Notes under the pieces: model-generated
Database searches by the model: none
What the model was told of the DNA's origin: nothing
What the model saw: the letters and a program-made list of their open reading frames with translations, nothing else
Position numbers and translations under genes: made by a program
Shown here: positions 16,824 to 19,507 of the stretch, in pieces
Numbering within the stretch: the first letter of the stretch is position 1
Layout of the letters: each line of letters starts with the position of its first letter
Source: Paramecium tetraurelia
Lineage: Eukaryota > Ciliophora > Oligohymenophorea > Peniculida > Parameciidae
NCBI RefSeq assembly: GCF_000165425.1
Contig: NW_001798995.1
Span: forward strand, 197,595-261,594
Direction: 5' to 3'
Length of the DNA: 64,000 bases

Positions 16824-18086
16824 ATGGAAACAGTTTCTTAACAAATAAAACAATTGAATCAGAAAAATCAAGAACTCTCAGTGTTAGAAAACAGAATAGT
16901 CTAATTGAAATAATAATTGAATTTGCAATAAGCAAACAATAATATCTTGAAAACTAAAGTAGATAAGATAGTTCACTCCAAAAAACAAAAGTTTTATGAT
17001 CAAATGAAGGTAACTTCATTACTAACAGAATTTAGTTGAACCAAATACTCCAGGATAATGCTGTAAATAATGACTAAGCTTAATATATGATTCAAAGAAA
17101 TAAAGTGTTATTGAATGAAGAACTAAGACAAACTAAATAGGATATGTTGGAAGAAAAGTATCTTCAAACCTAATAGATGAAATAAAAATTGGATTTAGAC
17201 ATGCTTATTAACTAAAAAAAAAGAGATCAATAGCTATTAGAGAAGTAGTAATAATATGCAAAAGTACTCAAATCATTTTATTTGATTAGATTTCAGAGTG
17301 GGAATTTAATCTTAAACTTGATTTAAAATAAAGACAGATAGATAAAATTGACAGAATCAGATCAGAAGAAAAGGAGTTCAAAGAACAATTAGCAAAAAGA
17401 ATATTAGAATAACATCAGCTATGTGAATAATTGACCAATCAAGAATAACGATTGTTAAGGTATCTTTTATTTGCAACTTATGAAGCAAATTAAAACATTC
17501 GCAATAGTTCGGAACCTCACTTAAAAATGATCTAACAACTGCAATGCATTTAAGTATAAAGGAGTATAAAAATAATATGTCTGTGTCAATGCCCACTCAT
17601 GTTAAATCTTACAGTTCTTCCAAATTACCAAAGGAACAATAACGTAGTCCTTATGCCCAATTGCCTACTATGCTCATGATGAAAATAAATGGATAAATCA
17701 ATAAGAGCTAAAATGAAAACTCTTTTTTTCGTGAAAATATTATGAAAGGGTATCAATTTTCTTTGCCTTCTCTTTGTAAGCCTTCCTTTACAGAATAGTA
17801 ACAACAAGTCGAACGGCTTTATTAATCCAAAACAGTGAAGAATAGTAAGTCAGATTTGCAGTAGATACTGAATTATTGTGATTCTACAGGTAAAATAGAA
17901 CAGAAATAAAAACATCGTATGAATTAAAGCGAAATATTGAAAAACTAGGCGAGTACTTATTCGATAAAGGAAAATAAATAGAACTAACAAGAGTAAGAGT
18001 AAAGTAAATAGTAATAATCAGAAGAAATGAAAATTAATAAGGATGAAGAAATATCGAATCAGAATTAATAAGAAGAATAACAATGA
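16824..18086 (+). CDS. coiled-coil hypothetical protein, 394 aa
   Basis: ATG 16824-16826, three introns of 26 nt each, TGA 18084-18086; the spliced frame is exact. Residues 1-200 are a long heptad-rich Gln/Glu/Lys/Leu coiled coil. The C-terminal half is Ser/Tyr/Gln/Asn-rich and ends in a very acidic and Gln-rich tail. No motif is recognised. A structural or basal-body-type role would be a guess. Its 3' end converges with the selenoprotein gene, leaving only the SECIS-like element in between. Confidence 0.75.
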
Positions 18087-18147
18087 TGATATGTATTTAT
18101 TAAAATTTTAATAAAATTTTATAACAGATTTTAAATCATTAAAAGAT

Positions 18148-18203
18148 CCTATATTTAAATCAGAGTCCAACTATAATATTTAAGAAGGATTCTTCATTTT
18201 AGG
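18148..18203 (-). promoter_or_regulatory. SECIS-like element
   Basis: On the minus strand, starting 44 nt past the stop codon of the selenoprotein W gene, the core of a eukaryotic SECIS can be drawn: ATGA (complement of 18194-18197), 12 nt to an unpaired AA(A) in the apical loop (18179-18181), then TGAT (complement of 18159-18162). The arms AGAATCC and GGACTCT pair with one mismatch just above the ATGA/TGAT quartet, and a lower helix of CCTA with TAGG (plus TAA with TTA) can form. This is the known requirement for decoding UGA as selenocysteine. Position, spacing and sequence agree with the in-frame TGA upstream. Confidence 0.75.
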
Positions 18204-18241
18204 TCTTGAGATGATCTAAAACGACATGGTTATGTATTCTT

Positions 18242-18585
18242 TCAATTTTCAATAAAATTGACAAGCTTTTTCATAGCTTTCTCTGCTGAAAATGCTCCGA
18301 AAGGACCATCTCCACGTAATTTAGAGTGAATTAGTTCAGATTTAGAATCCTTTCTAGTCACGGTTATTTCCATTTCTCCAGTTATTTTATCTTAGGATTT
18401 GCTTGTCACTTCAGCCTGAGGATATAATGATTTAATGTATTGTTAGGCCAAGTTGTATTGAGACCAATATCCTCATCCACCACAATAGGTGATATGAACT
18501 GGATAATAAATGAATAGGAAATACCTTTGAATTATTTATCTTTGGAAGTTTTAAGTGTTGAGATGTTCTCTGGTAATTTGATCAT
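18242..18585 (-). CDS. SELENOW: selenoprotein W homologue (Rdx family), 105 aa with Sec29
   Basis: ATG 18583-18585, one 26-nt intron (18499-18524), final TGA 18242-18244. An in-frame TGA at 18473-18475 sits exactly at the selenocysteine position of the Rdx CxxU motif: ITYCGG-U-GYWSQY, residue 29. Downstream the frame keeps SelW features: TGEMEITV, then ELIHSKLRGDGPFGAF and a C-terminal helix. No GT...AG pair can remove this TGA, and TGA is the only stop in this genome. Family members are small thioredoxin-fold redox proteins of the cytosol. Ordinary annotation would truncate or miss the gene. If UGA were simply a stop, the conserved downstream half would be untranslated, which I consider unlikely. 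Confidence 0.88.
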
Positions 18586-18761
18586 GAAATAATAAATAAT
18601 ATCTTATTATAATATAAATTTCACTTAAAAGTGTTAAAAAATAATGGATCAATAATAATTAAAAATAGTCCAAGAAATTTGTTAATTGTTATAAAACATT
18701 TAAAATAGTATAGCTTTGCAAAAATGAAATATTTGTGATTTATATTGTAATGTGTAATGTA

Positions 18762-19234
18762 TCAAGCTACAAGTATGCATGCTCCTCCAACTGCTTTGAT
18801 TCTTCTCTCTGCAGTTTTGCTAAAGAACTTAGCTTTGACAACGACTGGTTAATTTGGAAGTCTGCCTTTTCCTAGGACTTTGAAATAACCAGCCTTGGTG
18901 ACATCGATAACAGCAGCTTTGTCCTTTGATTTAGCATATTTTTCTCTGGTTTCATCAGTGACAAGTGACCATAATTTGTCAATATTGACTACAGGTCTGT
19001 GGAGTGTGTTTTTTTTCAAATGGAAATGTCTCATACCGGTCTAGAGGAGGAATAGGAGGAGATGGGTACTTTTTGGAAATAACCTGGATGGTATTTATTG
19101 AAATTGATTCTATGATGTGTTAAACCTCCTGAAACACCTCTACCACTTGGATGTTTTCTGTGTTTGCCAACTCTACCGTAACCATGGCATACATGTCCTC
19201 TCATTTTTCTACACTTTCTCAATCTGCTGACCAT
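18762..19234 (-). CDS. RPL27A: 60S ribosomal protein uL15 (L27a/L28), 147 aa
   Basis: ATG 19232-19234, one 29-nt intron (19041-19069), TGA 18762-18764. N-terminus [20 protein letters not shown] and the block [15 protein letters not shown] are hallmark uL15 sequence, as are [13 protein letters not shown] across the intron and [18 protein letters not shown]-type sequence near the C-terminus. The product is a structural protein of the large cytosolic ribosomal subunit. Length is as expected (about 148). The codons are less AT-biased than in neighbours, as usual for highly expressed genes. Confidence 0.97.
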
Positions 19235-19507
19235 TGTATTAAATTTTAAAAAAAAGATTTTAATATGTGATTAATACCCTGATTGAATATATAAATCGTA
19301 ATAAATCGAGAGTAGTGATTACCTAGAAATGCGAATTACTGTTAATTAACTGTTGTGCCAATAAGATGAAGTTGAGAGTATAATTTAAAAGGATTAAATA
19401 AATAATTAAAAATGTAAAATGATGCAATCGATTATCTGAAAATCTTCACTTCACTAACTATATTCAAAGCTTTCTGTTCTGGTGTGCATCGCTATAAAGT
19501 TAACTAG

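Follow-up and report, generated by a model that had tools for sequence, protein, structure and literature searches.

One of the closest described systems is that of the ciliate Tetrahymena thermophila, where UGA is the only stop codon and also encodes selenocysteine (Sec). In the available part of the source, six selenoproteins with SECIS elements are predicted for this organism, two GPx, three TrxR and SPS2 (PMC2612030), and the accessible portion of a further paper calls Tetrahymena the first organism found to have all 64 codons in use (PMC7409322). A similar arrangement is described, again in the parts of the papers at hand, for the diplomonad Spironucleus: UAA and UAG encode Gln, UGA occupies the Sec site of selenoprotein W (SelW), and no canonical SECIS was detected (PMC2874811). 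Three SelW paralogues are the only putative selenoproteins of S. salmonicida (PMC3916229), and tRNA-Sec, EFSec and SPS are reported for S. salmonicida and S. barkhanus (PMC2874811, PMC3916229). According to the available excerpts, UGA signifies Trp, stop and Sec in Condylostoma magnum and Parduczia (PMC4967479), and tRNA-Sec is recorded for Ichthyophthirius and Oxytricha (PMC3341644, PMC3558436). Among the open-access titles listed, none was on Paramecium selenoproteins, which does not show them to be unreported; PMC2746813 contains no ciliate names, and the accessible portions of PMC2375036, PMC4342817, PMC3281104 and PMC4561486, apart from a SelO homologue, say nothing about Sec genes in Paramecium.

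Paramecium tetraurelia, the source of the SelW gene reported here, shares traits with these systems. With Tetrahymena it shares the ciliate background, UGA as sole stop and Sec codon, tRNA-Sec(UCA), a SECIS in the 3' UTR and Sec in TrxR (both predicted here); in contrast, neither SelW nor SelT is among the six Tetrahymena selenoproteins, and the resolved GPx and SPS of Paramecium have Cys. The assignment of UAA and UAG to Gln, which leaves UGA as sole stop, and the presence of UGA at the SelW Sec site are shared with Spironucleus, a diplomonad, whereas Paramecium is a ciliate and SECIS-like hairpins were found. Condylostoma and Parduczia are likewise ciliates in which UGA near a SECIS also means Sec, but Paramecium lacks the Trp use, UGA being only stop and Sec. 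The question which the original prediction saw in this gene, namely how a cell with a single stop codon separates Sec from termination, stands; it is not unique, having been published, as far as the available text goes, for Tetrahymena (PMC2612030, PMC7409322) and for Spironucleus SelW (PMC2874811, PMC3916229). The novelty of the dual use of UGA in SelW is modest.

The SelW gene and its product

The window, the whole stretch of 64,000 nucleotides that was analysed, holds on its minus strand a SelW gene with UGA in the Sec position, an observation that is confirmed (Table 1). The reading of exon 2 bears out that an in-frame TGA lies within the Rdx motif: this inner TGA, the U of YCGG-U-GYW, stands at the second redox position and is followed by 76 codons of conserved frame up to the terminal TGA. 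The 26-nt intron is required, because unspliced reading from the ATG runs in another frame. At the exon joint the intronless paralogue L005 is continuous, LTFKVHITYCGG, and an identical joint is implied by an annotated protein of P. octaurelia (P0007, QFKVHITYCGG). ARAGORN reported no tRNA in the window. An adjoining gene at 18780-19240, also on the minus strand, resembles ribosomal protein L27a (uL15) by eye and may encode it.

Table 1 Features of the SelW locus and its predicted SECIS, in positions of the window
Feature	Position	Strand	Description
SelW gene	18585-18242	minus	two exons, ATG 18585 to TGA 18242
SelW exon 1	18525..18585	minus	reads MIKLPENISTLKTSKDKQFK plus one base
SelW intron, 26-nt GT-AG	18499..18524	minus	exons 1 and 2 are joined over it
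SelW exon 2	18242..18498	minus	HITYCGG-TGA-GYWSQYNLAQQYIKSLYPQAEVTSKSQDKITGEMEITVTRKDSKSELIHSKLRGDGPFGAFSAEKAMKKLVNFIEN-TGA; YCGG-U-GYW redox motif and conserved C-terminal part
SelW in-frame TGA	18473..18475	minus	residue 29, read as selenocysteine; identical codon in paralogue L005
SelW terminal TGA	18242..18244	minus	
Predicted SECIS of window SelW	18143..18207	minus	ATGA 44 nt after stop
SECIS helix I	18207-18200 with 18151-18143	minus	
SECIS core	ATGA 18197-18194, apical AA 18181-18180, TGA 18162-18160	minus	

For scoring, Cys was written in place of Sec in the spliced product. The comparison with the SelT/SelW/SelH families that had been proposed for this gene placed the product above both family cut-offs, with 42.1 bits against Pfam Rdx PF10262 (cut-off 22.6) and 41.8 bits against NCBIfam TIGR02174 (cut-off 34.2), and the CxxU/CxxC motif is present near the start of the domain as YCGG-U-GYW. 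The best solved relative was selenoprotein W (PDB: 2npb, E 5.2e-6), followed by C17orf37 (0.059); the product of paralogue L005 matched 2npb at 1.4e-7. Compared with solved structures only, the product appears to belong to the SelW subfamily, a placement which these matches support, with SelW as its closest characterised relative. Like 2npb it falls in the Rdx fold family, and the TG-x-x-E-x-TV and HSK-x-x-GDG blocks align; unlike 2npb, the Paramecium SelW proteins extend about 16 residues further at the N-terminus. In a set of 5.8 billion proteins the nearest annotated ones were P. primaurelia P0006, 96% identical to the SelW product over the shared residues, and P. octaurelia P0007 (two matches among four candidates). 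Protein searches with the products of L005 (SelW) and L001 (SelT) gave no match at E 0.001, and the comparison with other Paramecium species therefore rests on two proteins.

Alternative readings of the in-frame TGA

L005 carries TGA at the identical codon and is 62% identical to the window SelW. Over the 76 codons after the TGA, the two genes share 23 identical codons and differ by 21 synonymous and 32 non-synonymous ones (pN 0.27, pS 0.80); over the 28 codons before it the counts are 12, 8 and 8. Since pN lies so far below pS, the downstream part behaves as translated and constrained, and the expectation of a conserved SelW frame from the first to the second TGA is borne out. Seventy-six open codons alone are weak evidence, whereas constraint of this kind at the protein level goes beyond chance. 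A decaying SelW gene with a premature stop might be suspected from the interruption of the frame by TGA and from the imperfect SECIS stem of the window gene; set against the constrained frame past the TGA, the presence of that TGA in two paralogues and the close identity of the P. primaurelia protein, decay seems hardly credible. Homologues with neither Cys nor Sec at this site, named in the original prediction as grounds for abandoning it, were not what was found: the site is TGA in L005 and, in the structure as solved, Cys in 2npb.

Strictly speaking, the claim that the first TGA lies beyond the reach of any intron does not hold, as a 53-nt GT-AG interval could formally remove it. This interval extends the 26-nt intron by 27 nt, the last of which read GATGAG, and P. 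primaurelia P0006, which was viewed at the protein level, lacks exactly the nine residues VHITYCGGU (...QFK|GYWSQ...), as if the TGA had been spliced out. The introns placed in the window SelW and in the TrxR genes L065, L067 and L068, however, measure 23-26 nt, and the skipped form is without the redox motif and drops to 19.8 bits against the Pfam model, compared with 42.1 for the full product and a cut-off of 22.6. In the intronless L005, the TGA cannot be taken out in frame by any GT-AG interval of 18-35 nt; two such intervals exist at other lengths between 15 and 80 nt. The P. octaurelia protein P0007, moreover, has VHITYCGG as its last residues, as if the TGA had been taken for its stop. 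None of the eight selenoprotein genes predicted below has its Sec codon inside a GTA...TAG interval of 18-35 nt; L001 and L065 each contain a 33-nt GT-AG interval around it that would preserve the frame. We judge the skip in P0006 to be an annotation error, because the redox motif is lost with it and TGA is retained in the paralogue that has no intron, and we regard removal of the codon by splicing as very unlikely. Two public Paramecium proteins thus look wrong at the Sec codon, P0006 by skipping the redox motif and P0007 by ending there.

Euplotes reads UGA as Cys, and UGA might likewise have a plain sense meaning, Cys or Trp, in Paramecium, with no selenium involved. A Trp meaning is possible in Condylostoma and Parduczia, as stated in the available part of the source (PMC4967479). 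Against this, 15 in-frame TAA or TAG codons and no TGA occur in the SepSecS frame, and 11 and none in TrxR L066; four GPx genes, at their active site, and SPS have Cys from codons other than TGA, and genes for tRNA-Sec, EFSec and SepSecS are present. Among eight other family matches that hold a TGA, five (L065, L018, L024, L026 and L052) have it in a short intron-like GTA..AG interval of 18-35 nt. In the remaining three, L034 and L041 (eS12) and L025 (GPx), the TGA lies outside any such interval; by eye it seems to belong to a GT..AG intron in L034 and L041 and to a wrong-frame stretch in L025. No GTA..AG interval of 18-35 nt contains the Sec TGA of L001 or that of L005. TGA is not a general sense codon in this genome, and we hold a sense reading to be even less probable than splicing, the loss of function discussed above being the least probable of all. 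That UGA would be both terminator and Sec codon in a genome with UAA and UAG assigned to Gln is supported.

Predicted selenoprotein genes, Sec machinery and SECIS-like hairpins in the genome

The genome (69 Mb, 231 contigs) was searched with code 6. The Rdx search gave eight places: the second SelW gene L005, the SelT-like genes L001 (C224) and L003 (C6), in which TGA stands in YCTS-U-SY and which were named SelT by eye, and five places (L002, L004, L006, L007 and L008) that belong to a different Rdx type and have no TGA at their motif, reading NCxQHAGSTRHDE in two and a C-rich ...HDE stretch in three. The window SelW is absent from these eight places, and genome-wide counts are lower bounds because this search missed it. 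Four TrxR genes have TGA as penultimate codon: L065 (C24), L067 (C200) and L068 (C14), which, with an intron positioned by eye, end in GC-U-G and pass the cut-off of the TGR model, and L074 (C56:229500-232200), which ends in GC-U-A and matches in two pieces, each below that cut-off. Nine GPx matches were obtained; those in C3, C156, C157 and C177 have an active-site Cys from an ordinary codon, and the diverged ones in C45 and C212 have neither Cys nor TGA at the active site. SelK gave no match at E 0.1, in a search whose positive controls were also silent. Altogether, at least eight selenoprotein genes are predicted from sequence: two SelW, two SelT-like and four TrxR. As further genes were sought only in families known for Sec, the restriction of TGA to Sec sites partly reflects that choice.

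Absence of a tRNA-Sec or EFSec gene, another outcome that would have spoken against Sec, is not the case. A tRNA-Sec with anticodon TCA (L009, C88) scored 64.3 bits (cut-off 47), the other 15 of 16 matches lying below the cut-off, and EFSec domain III was found at two loci, L018 (C55) and L019/L020 (C34), which are probably a duplicate pair. SepSecS is encoded on C200 (E 4.7e-107). SPS (L021, C162) was recovered in two exon pieces of 104.9 and 89.1 bits, each under the NCBIfam cut-off of 125. It reads KGCGCK and so has Cys at what we take to be the Sec site, and the adjoining stretch reads N; in Tetrahymena, by contrast, the accessible text reports Sec in SPS2. For PSTK, three matches to the KTI12 family were obtained in two loci, and these may be PSTK or KTI12. 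Of 30 L7Ae-family places, 24 were read by eye, and in none of these was SBP2, the third component listed for checking beside tRNA-Sec and EFSec, recognised; the 24 resemble eL30, eS12, eL8, NHP2 or SNU13. L058-L061 look by eye like broken copies of eL8 and eS12 genes and of one resembling SNU13 or NHP2. The release factor eRF1 is encoded in two loci and carries YFCDPQF; changes like this one restrict ciliate eRF1.

SECIS-like hairpins lie 3' of all eight predicted selenoprotein genes, seven of them found by a purpose-written finder and that of L067 by folding only. Their core consists of ATGA, an apical AA about 12 nt further on and TGA, with a second helix outside the core. The finder scored the Rdx genes at -10.3 (window SelW), -16.6 (L005), -11.2 (L001) and -13.0 (L003), and the TrxR genes at -9.4 (C56), -9.4 (L065) and -13.3 (L068). 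All four TGA-bearing Rdx genes thus reach -10 or better, by criteria that were fixed after their elements had been viewed, and TrxR C56 misses this mark. Any candidate at all appeared in 25 of the 2374 control tiles, each 200 nt long; two tiles, overlapping on one site, reached -10, two were at -9 or better and six at -8. Fourteen regions had been entered as presumed negatives, of which two scored, L065 and L068. Both turned out on inspection to be Sec-type TrxR genes; the finder overlooked L067, which is also of the Sec type, and gave nothing for the 11 others, in which no Sec site is known. This accidental recovery of TrxR genes is a less biased check of the finder. When the apical spacing was relaxed to 10-14 nt, four of five published Tetrahymena elements from the available part of the source gave a candidate, one at only -8.9; the SPS2 element was missed, and a sixth, incompletely shown there, was left out.

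The stem of the window element is the weakest among the four Rdx elements, with 7 pairs, one A-C and two U-U mismatches. When the two SelW elements were compared by eye, three stem pairs were changed on both sides and yet still paired; in a MAFFT alignment the SelW and SelT elements fell out of register. A search of the whole genome with Rfam SECIS_1, in which 132 of 1685 first-look candidates were scored, gave no match at E up to 10 and hence none at the seven other genes, and all Rfam families run on 17800-18800 gave no SECIS but five weak matches, all below their gathering scores. As regards a discriminator between the two UGAs, a candidate SECIS-like element is present in the SelW 3' region, but Rfam SECIS_1 does not match it; the element is the likely discriminator.

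Two proposed meanings of UGA in one message

We consider it highly probable that this is a working Paramecium SelW gene. Its mRNA would lose one 26-nt intron, and UGA at codon 29 would then be translated as Sec by tRNA-Sec(UCA) brought by EFSec, directed by the SECIS hairpin in the 3' UTR, which is itself predicted. The second UGA, 77 codons on, would terminate translation through eRF1, and the product would be a small redox protein of the thioredoxin fold, with CxxU as its centre. We infer the action of the hairpin, the insertion of Sec, a function in redox chemistry and the existence of a protein that binds the SECIS; Sec-tRNA brought by EFSec under SECIS control is an established pathway.

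A single codon lies between Sec-UGA and stop-UGA in each of the four TrxR genes, for glycine in three (TGA GGT TGA) and for alanine in one (TGA GCT TGA). A switch acting on the whole mRNA is therefore insufficient, and position or local context must matter. It seems somewhat more plausible than its contrary that, where UGA means Sec and stop in one SECIS-bearing mRNA, the choice is set by position, order or local context and not by the codon or the mRNA as a whole. The base after the Sec codon is G in SelW and TrxR and T in SelT; that after the terminal TGA is A in five of the eight genes and G in three, too few for a rule.

These results would add Paramecium, for which eight or more selenoprotein genes are predicted, to the organisms with a dual use of UGA. 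Animals possess two other stop codons besides UGA. If the reading proposed for SelW is true, Paramecium has no alternative stop codon and would therefore be a natural system for measuring the rule that separates Sec from stop. The four TrxR genes with Sec-UGA and stop-UGA one codon apart are the most useful by-product, as their UGA pairs would offer a compact handle on one triplet read in two ways within one message.
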